A DNA stretch of 64,000 nt, taken from assembly GCA_010405405.1 (NCBI GenBank), contig MU004231.1, positions 2,347,249 to 2,411,248 of the forward strand. Reading direction: 5' to 3'. The DNA comes from Microthyrium microscopicum (taxonomy: Eukaryota; Ascomycota; Dothideomycetes; Microthyriales; Microthyriaceae). How positions within the stretch are numbered: the first letter of the stretch is position 1; each line of letters opens with the position of its first letter. The notes under the pieces were generated by a model. That model saw nothing but the letters and a program-made list of their open reading frames with translations. It did not search any database and was not told the origin of the DNA. Position numbers and translations under genes: made by a program. Below are positions 42,165 to 64,000 of the stretch, in pieces.

Positions 42165-42234
42165 NNNNNNNNNNNNNNNNNNNNNNNNNNNNNNNNNNNN
42201 NNNNNNNNNNNNNNNNNNNNNNNNNNNNNNNNNN
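42165..42234. other. assembly gap, 70 N
   Basis: Run of 70 unknown bases inside the Helitron fossil, just after the HUH domain. It probably marks a collapsed or unresolved repeat. Confidence 0.99.
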
Positions 42235-48345: not shown

Positions 48346-50366
48346 ATATTTAGCGTAACTATAACGTATTATAATTATTATAACTACATAGAATATAAAA
48401 CTACGTAATTAAAAAGTTAATTTATCCTAAAAACCTACCTATCTCTACTCTCTATAATAATACTAAAGAAATAAATCTATAAATAAATACACTATAAATT
48501 ATGCTTAATTATTAATATAACCTATATTTTATACTAAAAAGTTAAAGTATTAAAATATATAACTAAAATAAGAAGAATTACGTAAAAACAAAGAGGAAGG
48601 AGTAAATAAGATAACCTATTTATTATTAGTATAACTATTTATAGCGTGAACTCTTAATATTATAACTTCTATAAAAATATAAAAAGTTAATAAATATACG
48701 TATGTTTACTATAGATAGAAGCCTAAACCACTAAAGAGTAGTAATAGATTACTTACTTACTTATTACTAATTTACCCTTTACCTATAATAATAAAAAAAT
48801 ACTTTATAAATACTCCTTTACTAACTATAACTTATACTTCTCTACTACTATTAATATATAAGGCAATTTATTAAGACTATTAGCCCTAGCTAATAACTCC
48901 TCTAAAGCTAACGTTGCCATAAGATAGCAAACTGCTATACTATATAAATTAGGCTAATAAAAAGGAAAAGAAGTCTAATAATATGCGCTAATATAAAAGA
49001 ATACTAATCCTACCTCTTAAAATTAATAAAATTATTATATAAGTCTATGCTAACTAATGCCTTAAAAATTTGTAAGTTTAATAATGTATAATAAAATTAG
49101 TAAATATATTTAACCTTAGATAATAGAAGGTTAAAATACTATAATAGTTTAGAATATATCCCTAGGGCGAGATATTTCTAATTACCTACTAATACGTTTA
49201 CTTTTACGTAAACAAGATAGCTATATTTAATAAGCAAAGATAAGTAGTTTTTATAAATTACTAAGTATTCTACTTTCTTTTCTTACACTATATATAATAA
49301 CACTTTATAAAATAGCTAATACTACTATATTTCTAAAACTTACTAAAATATAAAGAATTAAGCCTTAAATAGATTCTTTTATATAAAAACTTACTATATT
49401 AAAGCCTTCCTACGAGGTTTACTACTAAATCTTTTATAACTAAACTATTATTTAATACCTTTCTAAGAGAGGTGTAAGAAGATACACTAGTAAGTAAGAG
49501 CTTTATTCATAATACTAAATATATAACTAATATAGTAATAGATCTATAAAGAAAATAAAAGTAATAACTCTTTGCTTAATTAACCTAAACAACTATTTCA
49601 ACTATATACTAAACGCTACTACCTATATATTTCCATTAAAGTCCCTATGTACTAATATCTAACAGTAGAATTATTAAAAATACGCGCTTATAATATAAAT
49701 ATATATAATCTTAAATACTACCTACTAAATATTAAAAAGTTAAAAAGACTAGTTAACCTTTATATAGAGCTAGCTTTAACACTATAATACTAAAATATAA
49801 AAGATAATAATAGTACAAATAATAATAAAGTAAAGGAAGAGAAAGAAGAAACTAATAACAACTTTAATAATTAATATTAGTAATTAGTAGTAGAAATATA
49901 TAACAATAATAAAATAATTAACATAATTAAGATAATTAATAATAATTAATATCTTTAATAGGTTAAACCTTAATTAATAGCTTATAGCTTAAAAGGGACT
50001 AAAAAATTAAAATAATTAAACTAATTAAAGGTCTTACTTTAAAAACTAATTAAAGAGACAAATTAGACAAAATAATTATAAATTATAACGTAGAGCAAAA
50101 TTATTTCTAAGTAAAAAACTTACTAACTTCCCTTTTTCCTTTTTTTACTAATACTATCCCTTCTAAACCTATAGAGGTTCTTTTAGGCATATTATAATTA
50201 CTTAACTAAATATATACTTTTTAGTATTATTTTAAAAGTTAAGACTTTATTTAGACTTCTATATTTCTTATTAAGACTCTAAAATATAATCTATAGCTTT
50301 ATCTAGCATTTACTAAGTTAATTCTTCCTTTATACGGATATCTTTAACTATACTTAAATTAACTTT

Positions 50367-50569
50367 TGTTATAGATCTTCTCCGTTAAGATCTCTTTATA
50401 AGATTTCTAGCATCCCTATTACGTAATGCTAAGGGCTTAGTGCCTAAGGTTTAGCTAGCATAGAGCTTATTTTCTACTAGCCCTAATCCCTCTTCTAGAT
50501 TCTCTATCTTAGTTTTCTTAAATTATATTTATATTTAGATTATACCCTTATATCTATAGCTTCCTAATA
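50367..50569 (+). repeat. 5' LTR of left chromovirus (203 bp)
   Basis: Begins TGTTATAGATC and ends CTTCCTAATA, where the less mutated copy ends CTCCCTAACA, so the LTR termini are TGTTA...TAACA. An inverted copy of identical length lies at 57,507-57,709, and every difference between the two that I noted is a C/T or G/A transition. Confidence 0.9.
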
Positions 50570-51299
50570 TAAAACTAAGATTACTTTAATATTTAAAAAC
50601 CTATTTTTAAAACGCATCTACTAATATTATAAGATTTAATAGTTTATACATCTAAAATCTACTATTCTATATAAAAACTAGGTCTTAAAACCTATAAAAA
50701 TAATAACCTTACTAGTATAGAAATTTATATATAAGGACTAAATAGATCTATAAGTATAGACTAATTAGTAATTAAGAAGAAGATCTTAGTATCTTCTACC
50801 CTATATTTACTAAACTTATAGTAATAGCTTTATCCTATACTTATATCTCTTTTTATATATCTAAATTAATAGTAATAAACTTAAACTAAAAATTACTTTT
50901 AATTAAAACGCCTAAACTTTATCCTAAACTTACTACTCTAACGAAGTAAATTATTTAGAAAACCTTAGCTAAACCTTATATATTAGTACTACCTACTTAT
51001 TATTACATAATACTAACTCTATAAACTATATCTAGTAAACTAATTAGTAGTTCCTAATTAGAAATATGCTTATAATCTAAAATTTAATAGCTTTAAGAAA
51101 CTTAGTCTACTATATAGTAGTTAAATACTAATAATCTTAATAGTAATAATAATATACCTATACTACCTTATAGCTATAGCTAGTACTATTCTTTTATCTA
51201 CTTTTACTAGCCTAAGCCCTAATCTTATTAAATATTATTAAATAAATTAAAGGTAGCACTTAGAATATATCTAAAAAGGATAAAGGTAAGAAAGTAATA

Positions 51300-52900
51300 T
51301 ATTATAATATATAACTATATTCGTTAGACTAAGATTAAATTAATTAGATCGTCCTTAAAGGTTAATTCCTATAATACTTTATAATATACGTTAGTATTAC
51401 TCTATAAGATTAAACCTATATTATCTCTATGTACCTTATATAAGACTAAGTAGTATTCTAAATATAAGAGTCTCTAAACTTAGAAGAAAAGATTAGACCT
51501 ATATTTATTAACTTTATTATACTCTACTATATTTAAAGTAAAGTAGAGCTAGAGATTATTAAAGATAAAATAAGCTTTACTTATAGCGTTAGCTTTTATA
51601 TTAATACTTAATTTAAGTAATTTTATAACTACGTTAAATCTATCTAAGCTATAAATATTACTTTTAAAGCTATATATATTAACTTAGTAAATTTATTAAA
51701 AGAATACTAATATAATAAAGATAATATATTAAACTTTTCTACTATATATAATAATACTATAGTATAAAATTCTTTCCTATAATAATATATCTATACCCTA
51801 AAAAGTAAAGCTACCTAAACTATAAGTAAAGCTTATTAGTTAATTAAGTAATAACTTTACTTTAAAGAATAGGATATAATTAATTACTATAAGGTAACTA
51901 GAGCTATAGATACTATTAAGCGTTTATATAATTCTTATACTAAAAAGTATAATTAGATTATACTTTTAGAAGGAAAAGTCTAAGATCTTAAAGATTAACT
52001 AAGTAACTTAGTCTATAAGACTAAAAAACTAGCATACTAGATAGATTCTAATAAGGAAATTAATATAATACTACCTCCTTAGGGCTATTTATATCTAAAT
52101 CTCTACCTTAATACTAAAAGTATTATATCTACCTTAAAAGTATTTATAAGCTCTAAAGCTAACTTTATATAAGAATAGTAAGATCTTAGTACTTATAATA
52201 GTAAGAAATAAGACTTATACCTATAATAAAAACTTAAAATTAAAGACTACCTCTACTATAAAGTATATACCTTTCTTAATAAGCTATCTTAAGCTATCTA
52301 GATTTATAGCAAATATAAAGACTTTATTCTTAGCTTTATTATTAATTATGCTTAATATAACGTACTTAACCTATATATTTCTATAGTAGAATTCTAAGAT
52401 AACTTTAACTACTACTTTAAAGGTACTAATAAATATAAAGCTACCTTTCTTTAGTTATAGAATCTATCTAATAAGATAAAGAAGACTAATAACTTAAGCT
52501 CTTACCTAGTTAAGTTTACTAATAAAACTAATAAAGCTTATTTATCTAATACTAATAAACTAACTTATATATGTAATATAATTACTAAAGAGCTAATAAG
52601 CTATCTCTATACTAGTAAAGTAACTATAAGCGCTAAATTTATAATAGAACTATAATAAGTTAACTACTTCTTAGATTATAAGAAGTCTAATAATAAAGAT
52701 AAAGATAAGAATAAGAATAAGGATAAGAATACTTAAAAGATAATTCTACGCTATAGTAATACCCTATTTCTATACCTTAAGAAAGAGGAACGCTACCTAT
52801 AATATAATAATAAAGGCTATAATCTATAATCTAAAACTATACTCTACTAAGGTAAAGACGCTATATTTAATAATAATATCTAAACTAAATTAGCTTTAAT
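51300..52900 (+). pseudogene. chromovirus gag fossil (left copy)
   Basis: Plus-strand gag-like reading with a Lys/Asp-rich stretch near 52.70 kb and a probable zinc-knuckle remnant near 52.78-52.85 kb (K-G-Y-N-L after mutated Cys codons). It is in a different frame from pol, which would fit programmed frameshifting in the intact element. Confidence 0.6.
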
Positions 52901-53199
52901 CTATACTTCTTAGTTATACTATACTTTAAGTATAAAAGATAATAATAATATACTCCTAACCTATAGCTAATACTAAAAAAATGTATAACTCCTTTATACT
53001 AATATATAGATAAGCTAAACTCTAATAAAGTATAAAATAAATAAAAGAAATACTAAATAGAAGTTATCTAAGCTTACCTAAGTAAATCTAAATCTAAGGA
53101 AGAATCTTATTATGATATAGTAGTAGTCTATATATTTATTACCTATCTACTAATTAATTAATTACTAGAAACTAATACTATCTTAAAAGTAGAATAATA

Positions 53200-56100
53200 G
53201 TAAAGCACTATAGGAAGTATTTTTCTCTTAGATAGCTTCTATACTAAAGTAAAAATCCTTATTAATATAAGTAGTAGTGTATTTAGTATTATTAATTTTT
53301 ATTATCTTTAACTCTATAGTCTTAAATCTATTAAAATATTAAGACTCTATTAAGCTAAGATAGCTAATAGTTATACTATTATTATTATAACTTATATAGT
53401 ATTTATTAGCTTATATATTAGTATTTATCTTAAATAAACCTTATACTTTATTATAGAAATTACTAACTATAATATTATTCTTAGAAACCCTTAGGTTAAT
53501 AAGTATAAAGTTATACTCTAAGGAAGCTAGTAAATACTAGGCTTCTATTCTAAGTACTATCTTTAAAGCTATATAGCTTTATACTACTCTATTATAGTTA
53601 ATTATAGAGGCTAAGTAGTTATAAAAAAGAAGAATAAGAATATTTCTAATATTTATATTATTTCTCTTTACGTATTTATAACTCTAATATAGTAAGAGAA
53701 AAACTAATTCTTTATATTATATAAAGAAAATTTTAATACGTTAAAAGAAAAAGAAAATCTAGATTTTATTTCTTAGCGTAATATTATTAGTATTATAGTA
53801 ATCTTAATAAAAGACTATACTAAATAGTAAGAGAAGCTTAAATAAGATTTATTAATATAAAAAGAATTACTTAGCCTAATTCCTAAAGAATTTTACTAAT
53901 ATATTTACCTCTTTAATCTAGTATAAGTTAATAAATTATTACCTTATTGCTCTAAATTTAATTACTTTATCTTAATAGATTTATAAGCTAAAGTACTTAT
54001 ATAGAAGTTCTATAGAATATTATATTAATAAGCTTAAGTTATTAAAGAGTATATTAAAAATATACTTAAGAAAGGCTTTATCTATAAAAGTACTTCTTAA
54101 TACGCCTTACTAGTTCTTTATATTAGTAAACTAGGTAGAGGTATCTAAGTCTATATAGATTACTATAGATTAAACGAAATTACCTTAAAGAATTAAAATA
54201 TTCTACTACTTCTTACTAAAACCTTTACGAAGATCTATAAAGCTAGATTCTTCTCTAAATTTAATATTATTACTACTTTTAATAATATTTATATTTATAA
54301 AGGTAATAAACATAAAACTATCTTTCTTACTTACTATAGCCTATTTAAGTTCTTTATTATACTATTTAGTATAACTAGTTTCCTTAGAATATTCTAAGCC
54401 TTTATTAATAGTATTATTTATAAATACTTAGATAACTTTATTACTATATATCTAGATAATATTCTTATTTAAAGTAAAACTAAAGAAGAGTATATTACTT
54501 ATATCTACCTAATTCTTAATAAGCTTAAAAAAGCTAGCCTCTATCTTAATATTACTAAGTTAGAATTTATAACTAAGAGCGTTAAATACCTTAGTATTAT
54601 TATTATACCTAATAGAATCTTTATAAATAAGAAGAAAGTTAAAGTAATACTAAAATAGTAATACTCTTTATTACTTAAAAATATCTAGATATTCCTAGGC
54701 TTTATAAACTTCTATTACTAATTTATTAAAGAATACTTAAAAATTATAGTACTAATAATAGTACTTACTAAAAAGAATATTTCTTAATAATATTCTTAGA
54801 ACTTAGATAGCCTTAAAGAAGCTACTTTTAAAGCCCTAAAAAAAGCTTTTACTATAATACTAATCTTATAATATTTTAATCCTAATAAAGAAACCTAGCT
54901 TAAAACTAATGCTTCTAACTAGGTTGCTATAATAGTTCTCTTATAAAAAAATAATAATAAAGAACTTTACCTAGTTACTTTCTTATCTAAAAAGATAATA
55001 CTAGTAGAATATAACTATAATATTTATAATAAGGAACTACTTATAATTATCTATATATTTAAAGAATAAGAACTAGAGCTATTCTCTACTAATAATCTTA
55101 TTAAAGTTTATATAGACTATTTTAATTTATAGTTATTTATATCTATAAAGAAGCTCTCCTATTATTAAGTATGCTAGGTAGAGTTCCTATTATAATTCTA
55201 GTTTAAAATTAAATACTATAATAGACTTTTAAATGCTAAAGCTAATATCTTTACCTAATAGTCCTAGGACCTATTATAATCTAATAATAATCTATAAGTT
55301 ATATAATAAATACGTTCTATACTATTCCTTTACTATTTTACTAATACCTATAGTACGTACTATATATCTAATATAATTACTTATAATATGTACTAAGTTA
55401 TTAAAGTAGTAACTATACTAGTTTAGAGTAAATACTCTTTAATAATTAAGTTAGCTATAATTATTACTAATAAAGTTAATATATTTACTATAGAAGGAGA
55501 GTTAACTAGTAATTTAACTATAAGGAGTTATTCTAAGAACGCTCTAATCTTAAAGGAATTAACTAATTATCTTAAGGTAGAGAATATGCCTACTAACCTA
55601 GAAACGTTATAAAAGAATATTATTAAAGTAAATAAAAAGGATAAGCTTATTTAAGCTATCTATAACTATAAAGTAGCGTAATATTATTACTTACTCTATA
55701 GTATACTAGAACGTAAATCTATTAAGCTTAGAGACTATTAAGTCCTTATAAATAAAATTATTTAATATTACTAGCGCTTACTAGTCCTTTATAGAAAACT
55801 TTATTATTATATAATATAATACGTATATAATTATAAGATTATAGGACATAAAAGTACTACTATAACTTATTAATATCTATCCTAGTTTTACTACTAGCCT
55901 TATATAGTAGAAGACGTTAAGTAATATATAAAATAATACTACTACGCTTTTTCTAAGCTAGTAATATAAAAGAAATAAGGCCTACTATAATTATTTCCTC
56001 TACTAGACTATATATAGACTAATATCTTAATTAACTTTACTATTATATTACTACTATATATCTACTTAAGAGTTATTTATTGCTACGCTATAATAGTAGT

Positions 56101-57250
56101 TAATAGACTTACTTATACTTACTATTTTATACCCTTAGCTAACCTTAGCGTTTAGATAATAGTATTAGTATTTCTTAACTAGATCTAGAAGTATACTAGC
56201 TAGCTAGACTCTATCTTATCTAATTATAGATCCTAATTTACTTTAGCTTTTTAGTATTACTTATATAAGTAAGTAAGAGTAATAATCCGCCTTACTATTG
56301 CTTAGTACTTATAATCTAATAGCATTACTAAGATTATAATATAAGCCCTAAAGGCTTACTTATAATACTTTGTTAATTACTAATAGAATAATTAGGTTAG
56401 ACTTCTACTATTTGCTAAATTTAAAGCTAACTACGCTATTTATATTATTACTAAAATAAGCCTATTTAAAGTACTTAATAGCTTACTACTACGATCTAGC
56501 TTAGAACTAGTTATACTAGGTAAGATATATATAGGCTCTAAGCTAGTATAAAATAAATAACGCTCTATAGACGTATTCCTTAAAGATAGATAAAACTTAT
56601 ATAACTATCTCTATAAGTAAATTTTATAGTCTTAGGTGCTAATAAATAAGTAAGTTAACTAATACTACTATCTAGTACCTAACCTTAAACTAAGTAACTA
56701 GGTATATCTAAATATACGTTACTATAAAACTCTTTACTTTTCTAAATTACTTAATAATAAATCTACTAGTCTATTTAAGATCTTAAAGAAGATTAATATA
56801 CTTACTTATAAGCTTAATCTTCCTAAGAAAATAAAAATATACCTTATCTTTTATACCTAGCTTTTATACTTTATTTTTAAAGATACTACTATACTATAAG
56901 AACTTAATAACTCTTTAGCTATTACTAATCTAGAAGGAAATAATAATAAGTAGGAATAGTTAGTTAATTATATTATTAATAGCTATTAGTATAACTAATA
57001 AGGAAAAGATAAGAAGAAGATACTCTAATATAAAGTTAAATTTATTAAATAGGATAATTAGAATTACGACCTAGATTAATAATTATAGATAAATCTTAAA
57101 TTATACCTTAAGCTTATTATAGAGTTTTATAACTATAATTCTATAAAACTAGGTTCTTATAAGTTATTTATTAACCTTTAGAAGAAGAAGGATAAAGAAT
57201 ATAACTTTAATAGTATTCTTCTTAATTAGTAAGGTTATTATTATTACTAT
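53200..57250 (+). pseudogene. chromovirus pol fossil (left copy): PR-RT-RH-IN-chromodomain
   Basis: In order: protease active-site region at 53,249 (I-D-S/T-G mutated to I-N-I-S-S-S); reverse transcriptase 53.9-54.6 kb with V-Y-I-D-Y-Y-R-L-N and the catalytic Y-L-D-D read as Y-L-D-N at 54,449; RNase H near 54.9-55.15 kb (T-N-A-S-N for T-D-A-S-D); integrase 55.7-56.6 kb with D-Y-I at 56,006; chromodomain 57.0-57.2 kb (Y-K-V-K-F, then Y-D-L-D). The chromodomain after integrase defines a chromovirus, a clade that targets heterochromatin. Confidence 0.88.
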
Positions 57251-57506
57251 AGTAGTATCTTAATACTTTTATAAACTAGAGTATTCTAAGGATATCTTAT
57301 AGTTCATTAATACTACTTAATAGTTACCTTAGTAGGCTAGAAGGTAATAAAGAATAAATACTTATAGTATTATATATAAAAGGATATTAAACTTTTTACT
57401 TTTATTATTATAGTTATAATATATTTTATACTTATTATAGCGTTATCTTATATAGTTAAATTAGCTTAGGAGCGCTAATATTAAAGGAAGGAGTATTATT
57501 ATAAAT

Positions 57507-57709
57507 TGTTAGGGAGCTACGGATACAAGGGTGCGATCTAGATGTAGATATAATTTGAGAAAACTAAGACAGAGAATCTAGAAGAGGGATTAGGGCCGGC
57601 AGGAGATAAGCTCCATGCTAGCTAAACCTCAGGCGCTAAGCCCTTAGTATTACGTAATGGGGATGCTAAAGATCTTATAAAGAGATCTCAACGGAGAGGA
57701 TCCATAATA
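57507..57709 (-). repeat. 3' LTR of right chromovirus (203 bp, inverted)
   Basis: On the plus strand it starts TGTTAGGGAGC and ends GGATCCATAATA, the reverse complement of the LTR at 50,367-50,569. It is less mutated than that copy. It forms the 203-bp spacer between the two inverted arms. Confidence 0.92.
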
Positions 57710-60700
57710 ATACTCCCTCCTCCGACATTAGCGCTCCTAAGCTAATCTAACTATGCGGGATAACGCTATAATGGGTATAAAACGTATTGTAACTATAATA
57801 ATAAAAGCAAAGAGTTTAATATCCTTTTGTATATAACACTATAGGTATCTATTCCTTGCTGCCTTCTAGCCTGCTAAGGCAACTATTAAGCAGTATTAAC
57901 GAACTATAAAATATCCTTAGAATACTCTAGTTCGTAGAAGTATTAGGACACTGCCATAGTAATAATAATAACCTTACTAATTAGGAGGAATACCGTTAGA
58001 GTCGTATTCTTTGTCCTTCTTCTTCTAAGGGTTAATAAACGACTCGTAAGGGCCTAGTTTTGTAGGATTATAGTCGTAAAACTTCGCGACGAGCTTAGGG
58101 CATAATTTAAGATCTATCTATAGTTACCAATCTAGGTCGTAATTCTAATCATCCTATCTAGTAAATTTAACTTTATATTAGAGTATCTTCTTCTTATCTT
58201 TTCCTCGCTAGTTGTGCTAATGACTATTAATAACGCGATTAACTAATTATTCCTACTTATTATCGTTTCCTTCTAGATTAGCGATGGCTAGGGGGTTATT
58301 AGGTTCTTATAGCATAGTAGCGCCTTTAAGGACGGGGTATAAAAGCTAGGCATAGAAGATAGGGTATATTTTTATTTTCTTAGGAAGATTAAGCTTATAA
58401 GTAAGTATATTAATCTTCTTCAAGATCTTAAATAGACTAGTAAATTTGTTATTAAGTAATTTAGAGGGGTAAAGGGTTTTATAGTAACGTATATCTAGAC
58501 ATACCTAGTTACCTAGTTTAAGGTTAAGTACTAGATAGCAATATTAGTTAACTTACTTGTTTATTAGCGCCTAAGACTACGAAATTTACTTATAGAAATA
58601 GTTACGTAAGTCTTATCTATCTTTAAGGAACGTATCTATGGAGCGTTATTTATTTTATGCTAGCTTAGAGCCTATATATACCTTGCCTAGTACAACTAGT
58701 TTTAAGCTAGATCGTGGTAGCGAGCCATTAAGCGCTTTAAATGGGCTTATTTTAGTAGTGGCGTAAACAGCGTAGTTAGCTTTAAACTTAGTAAACGGTA
58801 GGAGTCTAACCTAATTATTCTATTAGTAATTAACGAAGTATCGCAAGTAAGCTTTTAAGGCTTGTACTATGATCTTAGTAATACCGTTAGATTATAGGTA
58901 CTAAGCGGTAGTAAAGCGGATTATTACTCCTACTTACTTACATAAGTGGCGCTAGAAGGCTGAAGTAAATTAGGATTTGTAATTAGATAAGATGGAGTCT
59001 AGCTAGCTGGTATGCTTCTAAATCTGGTTAAGGAATGCTAATACTATTATCTAGACGCTAAGGTTAGCTAAGGGTATAAAGCGGTAGGTGTAAGTAAGTC
59101 TATTAACTACTATCATAGCGTAGTGATAAATAACTCCTAAGTAGATATATAGTAGTAACGCGACGGTGAAGTTAATTGAGATATTAGCCTACGCGTAGTT
59201 TGATAGAGGGAATAACTATAGTAGGCCTTATTTCTTTTGTATCACTAGCTTAGAGAAAGTATAGTAGCATTATTTTATATATTACTTAACGTCTTCTACT
59301 ATATAAGGCTAGTAGTAGAACTAGGATAGACGTTAATAAGTTATAGTAGTACCTCTATATCCCATAATCTTATAATTATATACGTATTATATTATATAAT
59401 AGTAAAGTTTTTTATAAGGGACTAGTAGGCGCTAGCAATATTAAATAATTCTATCTATAAGGACTTAATAGTCTCTAAGCTTAATAGATTCACGTTCTAG
59501 TATGCTATAGAGTAAGTAGTAATATTGCGCTACTTTATAGTTATAGATAGCTTAAATAAGCTTATCCTTTTTGCTTACTTTAATAATATTCTTCTATAAC
59601 GTTTCTAGGTTAGTAGGCATATTCTCTACCTTAGGATAACTAGTTAATTTCCTTAAGGTTAGAGCGTCCTTAGGACGACTCCCTATAGTTAGATTACTAG
59701 TTAACTCCCCTTCTATAGTAAACATGTTAACTTTATTAGTAATAATTATAGCTAACTTAATTATTAAAGGGTATTTACCCTAAACTAGTATAGTTGCTAC
59801 CTTAATAGCTTAGCGCGTGTTATAAGTAATTACATTAAATGTATAGCGCGTGCTATAGGTATTAGCAAAATAGTAGGGAAATAGTATAGGACGTACTTAT
59901 TATACGACTTATAGGTTATTATTAGATTATAGTAGGTCCTAGAACCATTAGGTAAGGGCATTAGCTTTAGTATTTAAAGGTTCATTATAGTATTTGATTT
60001 TGAACTAGAATTATAATAGGAACTCCGCCTAGCGTGCTTAATGGCAAGAGAGCTTCTTTATAGATATAAACGACCATAAATTAAGATAGTCTATATAGAC
60101 TTTAATAGGATCGTTAGTAGAGAATAGCTCTAGTTCTTATTCTTTAAATGCGCGAATAATTATAAGTAGTTCCTTATTATAAATATCGTAGTTATACTCT
60201 ACTAGTGTTATCTTTTTAGATAAGAAGGCAACTAGGTAAAGTTCTCTATCGTTATTCTTTTGTAAGAGAACTACTATAGCGACTTAGTTAGAAGTATTAG
60301 TTTTAAGCTAGGTTTCTTTATTAGGATTAAAATATTGTAAGATTAGTACTATAGTAAAAGCTTTCTTTAGGGCTTTAAAAGTGGCTTCTTTAAGGCCGTC
60401 TAGGTTCTAAGGATATTGTTAAGAGACGTCTTTTTTAGTAAGTGCTATTATTAGTACTACGATTTTTAAGTATCCTTTAATAAATTAGTAGTAGAAGTTT
60501 ATAAAGCCTAGGAATATCTAGACATCTTTAAGTAATAAAGGGCGTTACTATTTTAGCACCGCTTTAACTTTCTTTTTATTTATAAGGATTCTATTAGGTG
60601 TAATGATAATACTAAGGTATTTAATGCTTTTAGTTATGAATTCTAACTTAGTAATGTTAAGGTAGAGGCTAGCTTTTTTAAGCTTGTTAAGGATTAGGTA

Positions 60701-63700
60701 GACGTAAGCAATATACTCTTTTTTAGTTTCGCTCTAGATAAGGACATTATCTAGGTATATAGTAATAAAGTCGTCTAGGTATTTATAGATAGCGCTATTA
60801 ATAAAGGCTTAGAATATTCTAAAGAAACTAGTTATGCTAAATAGTATAACGAGGAACTTAAATAGGCTATAGTAAGTAAGAAAGGCAGTTTTGTATTTAT
60901 CGCCTTTATAAATACGAATATTATTAAAGGCAGTAATAACGTTAAATTTAGAGAAGAATTTAGCTTTATAGATCTTCGTAAGGGTTTTAGTAAGAAGTAG
61001 CGAAATATTCTAATTCTTTAAGGTAATTTCGTTTAATCTATAGTAATCTACGTAGACTTAGATACCTCTACCTAGTTTACTAACGTAGAGAACTAGTAAG
61101 GCGTATTAAGAAGTGCTTTTACAAATAAAGCCTTTTCTAAGTATATTTTTAATATACTCTTTAATAACTTAAGCTTATTAGCGCGATATCTCGTAAGACT
61201 TCTATATAGGTGCTTTAGCTTATAGATCTATTAGGATAAAGTAATCAAATCTAGGGCGATAAAGTAGTAATTTATTAGCTCATGCTAGGTTAAAGAGGCA
61301 GACATATTAGTAAAATTCTTTAGGGATTAGGCTAAATAATTCTTTTCGTATTAGTAAGTCCTATTTAAGCTTCTCTTGCTATTTAGTATAGTCTTCTATT
61401 AAGATTACTACAATGCTAGTAATATTACGCTAAGGAATAAGATCTAAATTTTCTTCTTCTTTTAACGCGTCAAAATCTTCTTTATATAATATAGAGAATT
61501 AGTTTTTCTCTCGCTATATTAGAGTCGCAAATATATAGGCAGAAATAATATAGATATTAGGAGCATTCTTATCCTTCTTTTTTATAACTACTTAGCCTCT
61601 ATAATTAACTATAATAGGGTAGTATAAAGCTATATAGCTTTAGAGATAGTGCTTAGAGTAGAAGCCTAGCGTTTGCTAGCCTTCTTAGAGTGTAACTTTA
61701 TGCTCGTTAACCTAAGGGTCTTTAAGGATAATATTATAGTTAGTAATTTCTATAACGAAGCATAAGGCTTATTTAAGATAAATACTAATACGTAAGATAA
61801 TAAATGCTATATAAGTTATAGTAGTAACGGCGTAACTATTAGCTATCTTAGCTTAATAGGGTCTTAACATTTTAATAGATTTAAGGCTATAGAGTTAGAG
61901 GTAATAAGGGTTAACGATGCTAAATATGCTACTACCTATATTAATGAGGATTTTTACTTTAGTATAGGAGCTATCTAAGAGAAAGATACTTCCTATAATG
62001 CTCTACTATTATCCTACTTTTAGGATAGTATTAGTTTTAAGTAATTAATTAATTAGTAGATAGGTAGTAGATACGTAGACTACTACTATGCTATAATAAG
62101 GTTCTTTCTTAGATTTAGATTTGCTTAGGTAAGCTTAGATAGCTTTTATTTAGCGTTTCTTTCGTTTATTTTATGCCTCATTAGAGTTTAGCTTATCTAC
62201 GCGTTAGTACAGAGAAGCTACACGTTTCCTTAGCGTTGGCTGTAGATTAGGAGTATATTATTATTATCTTCTACGCTTAGAGCATAATATAACTAAGAAG
62301 TATAGATTAAAGCTAATTTAGTTTAGATATTATTATTAGACATAGTATCTTTATTTTAGTAGGGTGTAGTTTTAGATCGTAGATTATGGCCTTTATTATT
62401 ATATTATAGGTAGCGTTTTTCTTTCTTAAGGCGTAGGAATAGGGCATCGCCATAACGTAGAATTATCTTCTAAGTATTCTTATCCTTATCCTTATCCTTA
62501 TCCTTATCTTTATTGTTAGACTTCTTACGGTCTAAGAGGCGGTTAACTTATTATAGTTTCGTTATAAATTTAGTGCTTATAGTTACTTTGCTAGCGTAGA
62601 GATAGCTTATTAGCTCTTTAGTAATTATATTACGTATATAAGTTAGTTTATTAGTATTAGATAAGTAGGCCCTATTAGTTTTGCTAGTAAACTTAACTAG
62701 GTAAAAGCTTAAGTCGTTAGTTTTCTTTATCTTATTAGATAGATTTTATAACTAAAGAAGGGTAGCTTTATATTTATTAGTGCCTTTAAAGTAGTAGTTA
62801 AGGTCATCCTAGAACTTTACTATAGAAATATATAAGTTAGGTACGTTATATTAAGCGCAATTAATAATAAAGCTAAGAGTAAGGTCTTTATATTTACCAT
62901 AAACCTAGATAGCTTAAGATAGCTCGTTAGGAAAGGTACGTACTTCGTAGTAAAGGTAATCTTTAACCTTAAGTTTCTACTATAGATATGAGTCTTATTT
63001 CTTATTATCGTAAGTGCTAGGATCTTACTATTCTTATATAGAGTTAGCTTTAAAGCTTATAGATACTTTTAAGGTAAGTATAACGCTTTTAGTATTAAGG
63101 CAAAGATTTAGGCGTAGGTAGCCCTAAGAGAGTAGCATTATATTAACTTCCTTATTAGAGTCTATCTAGTATACTAGTTCTTTAGTCTTATAAGCTAAGT
63201 TGCTTAGTTAATTTTTAAGATCTTAGACTTTTCCTTCTAGGAGTGCGATCTAATTACGCTTTTTAGTATAGGAGTTATATAGACGCTTAATAGTGTCTAT
63301 AGCTCTAGTTACCTCGTAGCGATTAATTACATCCTATTCTTTAAGGTAAAGTTATCACTTAATTAACTAATAAGCCTTACTTATAGCTTAGGTAGCTTTA
63401 CTTTCTAGGGTATAGATGCGTTATTATAGGAGGGAATTTTATACCATAGCGTCATTATATATAGTAGAAAGGTCTGATATACTATCTTTATTATGTTAGC
63501 ATTCTTTTAATAGATTTACTAAGTTAATGCGTATAGCTTTAAAAGCGACGCTCATAGCTTAAATAGATTTAACGTAGTTACAAAATTGCTTAAACTAGGT
63601 ATTAGCGTAAAAGCTAACGCTATGAGCAAAGCCTATTCTATCCTTAATAACCTCTAGCTCTACTTCGCCTTAGACATAGTAGAGCACAATAAGGTTAATA

Positions 63701-64000
63701 AGTATAGGTCTAATCTTTCCTTCTAGGTTTAGAAACTTTTATACTTAGAATACTACTTAGTTTTATATAAGGTACGTAGAGATAACGTAGGTTTAATCTT
63801 ATAGAGTAATGCTAATGTATATTGCAAAGTACTATAGGAATTAACTTTTAAGGGTAATTTAATCAATCTAATCTTAGTCTAGCGGATATAGTTATATATC
63901 GTAATGTATTGCTTTCTTGCCTTTGTCCTTTTTGGATGTACTCTAAGCGCTACCTTTAGTTTATTTAATAATATCTAATAGGATTAGGGCTTAGGCCAGA
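57507..64000 (-). mobile_element. right Ty3/Gypsy chromovirus copy, partly RIP-degraded, cut by the window end
   Basis: The same element on the minus strand: 3' LTR 57,507-57,709, purine tract GGAGGAGGGAG beyond it, then chromodomain (58.0-58.2 kb), integrase, RNase H and RT. Y-L-D-N-V-L-I lies at about 60,745-60,770, the protease region at about 61.9 kb, and gag to the window end. It aligns to the left copy with a constant coordinate sum of 115,206 at both the LTR edge and position 64,000. It has clearly more GC, CpA and TpG than the left copy but is still riddled with stops. Its 5' LTR should lie about 0.64-0.84 kb past the window. Confidence 0.92.

Follow-up and report, generated by a model that had tools for sequence, protein, structure and literature searches.

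What produces a long mirror-image stretch of DNA made of two retrotransposons, and does such a structure have a role? The question is raised by a window of 64,000 nucleotides of Microthyrium microscopicum DNA (contig MU004231.1, positions 2,347,249 to 2,411,248), in which two related elements face each other as an inverted repeat. The palindrome is very probably a retrotransposon nested backwards in the 3′ LTR of an older sibling, with RIP acting on both. Nested insertion is an ordinary route to mirror-image DNA, and on this reading a striking palindrome needs nothing beyond such an insertion and RIP, both of them ordinary processes.

Extent and geometry of the inverted repeat

When the window was compared with itself by BLAST, 57704–63999 paired with 57502–51207 in one gap-free alignment of 6,296 bases, 87.3% of them identical (E = 0.0). 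The arms are collinear and inverted, and their paired coordinates sum to 115,206, as the original prediction had stated. Arms had been proposed at 51,206–57,497 and 57,709–64,000; the inverted repeat is real, but its arms are longer, the outer edge at 51206/64000 being the end of the window. With 7.7 kb of flank added, they reach 50367 and 64849 (about 7.14 kb each; 64849 is a window-equivalent position outside the window) and align over 7,140 bases at 87.2% identity. The supposed lack of any net insertion or deletion holds across the gap-free 6,296 bases, but the whole arms carry one 10-bp indel (63997–64006 in the right arm, missing from the left arm at 51209/51210). The spacer between the arms is a 203-bp LTR, as had been described. 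The palindrome is imperfect, because its arms are only 87% identical. A sensitive self-comparison was uninformative, with AT-rich sequence aligned to AT-rich sequence throughout.

One element nested in the LTR of another

The left (outer) element occupies 50367–57506 on the + strand, and the right (inner) element occupies 57507–64849 on the − strand, extending beyond the window (Table 1). The inner element is complete, with both of its LTRs and TAAAT on either side. It lies in opposite orientation 10 bp within the 3′ LTR of the left element, which is split into pieces of 10 bp and 193 bp that sum to 203 bp. Two nested 5-bp target duplications are intact, ACTTT for the outer element and TAAAT for the inner one; the chance that two random 5-mers from the same block match is 0.55%. 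We infer that the insertion was made by integrase. The original prediction contained neither the nesting nor the split LTR nor the two duplications, and most of the proof for these lies beyond the window.

Table 1. Features of the nested pair, in window coordinates (positions above 64000 are window-equivalent and lie outside the window)
Feature	Positions	Strand	Remark
Outer target-site duplication ACTTT	50362–50366; right copy 65048–65052	.	right copy outside window
5′ LTR of older left element	50367–50569	+	203 bp
Internal region of older left element	50570–57496	+	GC 21%; polyprotein homology on +
Left element domains, by polyprotein homology	RT ~54125–54602; RNase H 54878–55196; integrase core 56063–56309	+	
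3′ LTR stub of left element	57497–57506	+	first 10 bp; severed by insertion
3′ LTR remainder of left element	64855–65047		193 bp; outside window
Inner target-site duplication TAAAT	57502–57506; right copy 64850–64854	.	
3′ LTR of younger right element	57507–57709	−	203 bp; palindrome spacer
Internal region of younger right element	57710–64000, on to 64646	−	polyprotein homology on −; GC of whole element 31%
Right element domains, by homology	RT ~60604–61081; RNase H 60010–60328; integrase core 58897–59143	−	
Chromodomain-equivalent stretch, right element	58075–58243	−	
5′ LTR of younger right element	64647–64849	−	outside window
Left arm, ungapped inverted repeat inside window	51210–57502	.	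whole arm 50367–57506
Right arm, ungapped inverted repeat inside window	57704–63996	.	whole arm 57700–64849

Repeats within AT-rich blocks are difficult to assemble, and a run of 70 Ns lies nearby (42165–42234, about 8 kb left of the outer element), so two unlinked copies or two haplotypes might have been joined back to back during assembly. Such an artefact is scarcely credible here, as a false join is not expected to yield two nested 5-bp duplications together with LTR pieces adding up to 203 bp. Collapse of the arms is also unlikely, given the 917 sites that distinguish them. The centre of the palindrome is known from the assembly alone.

Orientation and type of the elements

RT matches lie on the + strand in the left arm (C2:2401637–2401852) and on the − strand in the right arm (C2:2407850–2408248), and the polyprotein alignments of both arms point to the centre. 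These two lines of evidence agree with the tail-to-tail arrangement first proposed and rule out a head-to-head (divergent) reading drawn from the LTR pairs. The homology query was the 1,325-aa frame of L030, an uninterrupted chromodomain element of the same genome, and its tblastn alignments are collinear over residues 1–1318 in the right copy and 1–1263 in the left copy. By homology to this frame, RT, RNase H and integrase follow in Ty3 order in both copies, and the aligned frames of the two elements contain 102 and 92 stops.

The RVT_1 profile matches both copies, the left one above the cut-off only together with its frame neighbours. When five short stop-to-stop pieces from the right arm were scanned with Pfam, RVT_1 was found weakly in two, below the cut-off, and three other weak and unrelated matches were taken as chance. 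Neither copy matched the rve profile or the Integrase_H2C2 profile (the latter found only in other family copies), nor the Chromo profile at E up to 1. Against the L030 chromodomain (residues 1240–1289), the right copy is identical at 13 of 50 residues with 4 stops, and the left copy aligns over 24 residues, 10 of them identical, with 3 stops.

A chromovirus is a Ty3-type element with a chromodomain at the integrase end. Judged by sequence homology, both elements are most likely Ty3-type LTR retrotransposons of this kind. They resemble Ty3-type chromoviruses in their LTRs, the 5-bp target duplication and the PR–RT–RNase H–integrase order (by homology to L030), and differ in having numerous stops that interrupt the frame. 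The earlier description as two chromoviruses thus stands as to two Ty3-type elements with one LTR between them and is likely as to chromoviruses through homology to L030, although neither copy has a Chromo profile match.

RIP and the relative age of the two copies

The arms mismatch at 917 of 7,140 aligned bases, and all but three of these differences (transversions) are C/T or G/A. Of the 914 RIP-type sites, 801 are mutated in the left arm and 113 in the right. Thus, the divergence was made by RIP, and of the two elements the left one appears to be the older. Mutation is heaviest at CpA (388 of 396 sites changed in the left element and 288 of 396 in the right), with CpT mutated at 230 of 1133 sites in the left element; these figures bear out the original view that the locus is RIP-mutated. 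The outer 5′ LTR is RIP-mutated as well. The outer LTR piece beyond the inner element has 30 mutated sites versus 0 in the inner 3′ LTR, besides one transversion that adjoins the alignment end gap. Since this far-side piece is heavily mutated too, RIP load tracks the element and not the position, and RIP is heavier in the outer element. Three transversions versus 914 RIP-type changes between the copies provide a relative date, with the older copy identifiable.

Compared with the LTRs of the inner element, both TAAAT copies carry an identical pair of G-to-A changes, which could be parallel mutation. Taken with the difference in RIP load, these changes suggest that RIP was already acting on the outer element when the insertion took place. 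A search for a RID-type methyltransferase found DNA methylase domains in the genome; the candidate is one 696-aa open frame, and two named fungal relatives have 805 and 727 aa.

The locus very probably arose as follows. A Ty3-type element, most likely a chromovirus, would first have landed in an AT-rich block, at a site reading ACTTT, and would then have been mutated by RIP; the block spans about 33.25–110.0 kb in window-equivalent coordinates. A sibling of the same sub-lineage would next have integrated the opposite way into the 3′ LTR of this element, 10 bp from the LTR's start, duplicating TAAAT, and both elements would later have undergone RIP. Because the insertion is at the very end of its target, the two elements oppose each other over nearly their full length in a single long inverted repeat, with the inner 3′ LTR as spacer.

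Kinship among the family copies

By transversions, the left and right copies come from the same sub-lineage. An initial matrix covering 8 of the 12 copies set them 3 transversions apart, versus at least 7 in the remaining 27 pairs. This apparent closeness mostly disappeared once the remaining four copies were included over a shorter stretch of 4.2 kb: over that stretch in all 12 copies, left and right are 2 transversions apart, and each is 3 away from an unlinked copy on C1. The left–right pair is the closest of 66, for which the median is 14.

Shared RIP sites were compared in 6 of the 12 copies, one existing unlinked copy providing the reference state at C/G sites. Left and right have the highest odds ratio of 10 pairs (4.75), followed by 4.73 for an unlinked pair and by 1.98 to 4.25 for the other unlinked pairs. 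When the right copy served as reference instead, the values for sharing between the left copy and each of the other four ranged from 1.52 to 2.28. A special shared RIP history of the arms was rejected, as their lead over the next, unlinked pair is negligible. Left and right are nonetheless closest by transversions and, barely, top in RIP sharing, which leaves room for a local or same-particle origin.

A rival reading is an inverted segmental duplication, in which fold-back replication or a template switch mirrored one element in place. It would fit arms that are the closest pair by transversions, are collinear but for one small indel and have a marginally greater overlap of RIP sites than the nine other tested pairs. 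This origin is extremely improbable and was rejected: the inner element has two LTRs of its own and a 5-bp TAAAT duplication at which the outer LTR is split, the unlinked C1 copy is nearly as near to each arm, and the excess of shared RIP over an unlinked pair is negligible. Sister cDNAs in one particle could have combined, one entering the LTR end of the other, before the 14.7-kb composite integrated as a unit. The same nested duplications are predicted, and the closeness of left and right by transversions would be accounted for. The composite is nevertheless very improbable, because it predicts equal ages whereas RIP is unequal (801 mutated sites against 113 between the arms, and 30 against 0 in the LTR comparison), and because with C1 nearly as close the left–right pair is not special.

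A possible hairpin RNA and comparison with known systems

A role for the palindrome through hairpin RNA is possible. Mu killer of maize likewise brings inverted copies of a single transposable element together at one place (PMC3440606). The M. microscopicum locus is similar in this and in that one-sided read-through is conceivable; it differs in that its arms are 13% diverged and it is known from sequence alone. A working silencing locus would need read-through from the outer element to yield a hairpin RNA whose dicing silences the family, the model put forward for Mu killer. From the geometry, an outer transcript would cross the 10-bp LTR stub and continue into the inner copy in antisense. 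The genome contains Piwi, RdRP and Dicer_dimer domains; of 7,130 windows of 21 nt along the aligned arms, 590 pair perfectly, and G-U pairs would form at 520 of the 917 mismatches if the + strand were transcribed. Against this, both elements have many stops and RIP mutations, the outer 5′ LTR included, further mutated copies occur outside the palindrome, and RIP alone could account for the silence of the family. A working silencing locus is very improbable. There is likewise only a slim chance that the backward insertion severed the sibling from its own terminator, with any outer transcript entering the antisense copy; if true, self-nesting at an LTR edge would give a family a built-in silencing hairpin before RIP completes inactivation. 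The locus is most likely a dead, RIP-inactivated nest with no other role.

In Zymoseptoria tritici, elements nested in older elements are described within TE-rich, RIP-affected compartments, with less RIP in the younger copies (PMC9970103). Insertion into an older element, the TE-rich compartment and the lighter RIP of the younger copy are all alike in M. microscopicum. Unlike the nests described there, the two elements here belong to the same sub-lineage and are inverted at an LTR tip, which yields one long palindrome. The locus was not found described in titles and abstract openings of the literature on nested insertions, RIP, palindromes and hairpin loci, and judged by title no M. microscopicum literature found concerns its transposons. 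As a caution, self-nested insertions can yield long palindromes in RIP genomes.

Other interruptions in the family

Eight interruptions were counted in the family copies: one each in the locus pair, C1, C18, C3, C7 and the outer C9 copy, and two in C4. They give no sign that insertions favour the tip of the LTR: only the interruption of the locus pair lies in an LTR, in a small sample obtained with a query without the 5′ LTR. A second self-nested pair of the same family occurs on C9 in direct orientation, with its own 5-bp duplication, TCTTT. Outside the interruption count, a 74-bp inverted piece of the family lies at C4:1301182–1301255.

A nested insertion of two related elements

The genome analyzed comprises 36.9 Mb in 20 contigs; the window corresponds to C2:2347249-2411248 and includes a Vps54-type gene. 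In a BLAST alignment of the window with itself, 57704-63999 pairs ungapped with 57502-51207 at 87.3% identity, so the inverted repeat predicted at 51206..64000 is real. Its predicted outer edge is merely the window edge: once the flank is included, the arms span 50367-57506 and 57700-64849, with 87.16% identity over 7,140 aligned bases. Likewise, the predicted lack of net indels holds within the window pairing, but with the flank included one 10-bp gap appears (63997-64006 on the right, missing at 51209/51210 on the left). Mismatches number 917 over the 7,140 sites: 914 C/T or G/A and three transversions.

Reverse transcriptase profiles match the left arm on the + strand and the right arm on the - strand. 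Alignment with L030, an uninterrupted 1,325-aa frame at another site in the genome, covers its residues 1-1318 on the - strand in the right element (37.8% identity) and its residues 1-1263 on the + strand in the left (31.9%). The coding of both elements thus converges on the central LTR, which bears out the predicted tail-to-tail arrangement. With 92 stops in the aligned frame of the right element and 102 in that of the left, both look dead. The single LTR predicted between the arms belongs to the right element (its 3' LTR).

Layout of the nested elements (positions above 64000 are window-equivalent and lie beyond the window)
Feature	Position	Strand
Outer TSD ACTTT, left copy	50362-50366	
Left element 5' LTR	50367-50569	+
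Left element internal region	ends 57496	+
Left element 3' LTR, first 10 bp, ending in TAAAT	57497-57506	+
Right element 3' LTR	57507-57709	-
Right element internal region	ends 64646	-
Right element 5' LTR	64647-64849	-
Inner TSD TAAAT, right copy	64850-64854	
Left element 3' LTR, other 193 bp	64855-65047	+
Outer TSD ACTTT, right copy	65048-65052	

This layout identifies the palindrome as a nested insertion, the right element lying inside the left element's 3' LTR, whose two pieces together make 203 bp. In the block, two 5-mers taken at random are identical 0.55% of the time, which excludes chance for two matching 5-bp pairs at exactly the expected places. The original prediction was a correct observation with an ordinary cause.

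Inverted duplication of a single element was considered and rejected, as an unlinked copy on contig C1 is nearly as close to each arm. Among 12 copies compared over 4.2 kb, left and right differ by two transversions, the fewest of the 66 pairs (median 14), and each differs from the C1 copy by three; by sequence, the two elements are members of one sub-lineage that includes this unlinked copy. Sharing of RIP sites by the arms (odds ratio 4.75) hardly exceeds that of the next, unlinked pair (4.73; 10 pairs, 6 of 12 copies), which also counts against duplication.

RIP and relative age

The claim of RIP-mutated DNA is upheld by the transition bias of the arms and by sequence context. Scored against one unlinked copy as reference, mutated C sites in the left element number 388/396 at CpA, 480/578 at CpG, 121/445 at CpC and 230/1133 at CpT; in the right, 288/396, 250/582, 50/449 and 111/1134. 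At the 914 C/T or G/A differences, the left arm is mutated at 801 and the right at 113. The inner LTRs differ at 26/203 sites, by transitions only, and the outer 5' LTR differs from its partner piece beyond the insert at 30/199 compared sites, where the only transversion falls on the final base, immediately beyond the LTR. Against the inner 3' LTR, that far-side piece alone is mutated at 30 sites, with none in reverse and one transversion adjoining an end gap. RIP load thus tracks the element rather than position, which points to the left (outer) element being the older. Compared with the LTRs of the inner element, both TAAAT copies show the same two G-to-A changes; this fits, if weakly, RIP of the outer element before the insertion.

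In both elements, only CpA is more heavily mutated than CpG. Observed/expected CpG is 0.55 in the left element, 1.04 in the right, 0.44-0.68 in four block stretches and 0.87-0.88 in genes. Leptosphaeria maculans is reported to have a CpA signature only, and Tuber and some Aspergillus to show CpG alongside CpA, the CpG component being tied to another methylation process (PMC4352252). The mixed signature here may merit attention.

Two DNA cytosine methyltransferase genes are present. L033 (C4:211754) matches solved chains 9baq and 9bap (1,456 aa; E ~1e-102), a length that fits DIM-2. For L034 (C3:734392), the named fungal relatives measure 805 and 727 aa, near the size of RID; a search for a close solved relative of L034 found none.

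Potential for hairpin RNA

The insertion leaves 7.3 kb between the left element's 3' end and the remainder of its 3' LTR, so a read-through transcript would enter the antisense right element and could fold back into a hairpin. Piwi, RdRP and Dicer_dimer domains all occur in the genome, and 590 of 7,130 21-nt windows in the arm alignment are perfectly paired (longest perfect run, 58). That the palindrome acts as a hairpin-RNA silencing locus nevertheless seems highly improbable: both elements are RIP-mutated, and hairpin transgenes in Fusarium oxysporum reportedly tended toward transcriptional inactivation (PMC3733888). Mu killer of maize (PMC3440606) is the closest working example known to us.

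Related copies and the AT-rich block

At least 10 close copies of the family are unlinked, with 85-88% identity over the longest piece of each; the matches listed further include an older copy on C9 (73-78%) and more distant ones (68-73%). These counts are lower bounds, from 30 scored candidates of 227, with the pair itself outside the list. A second self-nested pair lies at C9:1322264-1336982 (L025, L026), one copy inside an older one in the same orientation, with TCTTT duplicated on both sides of the inner copy.

L030 (C2:1272600-1277900) and L031 (C2:942300-946900; 1,247 aa) are uninterrupted Ty3-type polyprotein frames with Chromo matches; RIP-mutated elements are numerous in this genome. 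In L030, RT, RNase H, H2C2 and SH3_Tf2-1 exceed Pfam cut-offs, rve and protease fall below, and Chromo falls below in one profile search and above in another.

The pair sits in a sharply bounded AT-rich block of ~77 kb (~33.25 to 110.0 kb, window-equivalent) midway along a 4.5-Mb contig, with GC of ~16-30% inside vs 45-50% outside (4-kb windows, edge windows excepted) and observed/expected CpA of 0.04-0.16 in four stretches outside the pair. The block also contains a run of 70 Ns (42165-42234), either an assembly gap or withheld sequence, and a more distantly related LTR element (85133-92524, window-equivalent, C2; LTRs 73% and internal region 69% identical).
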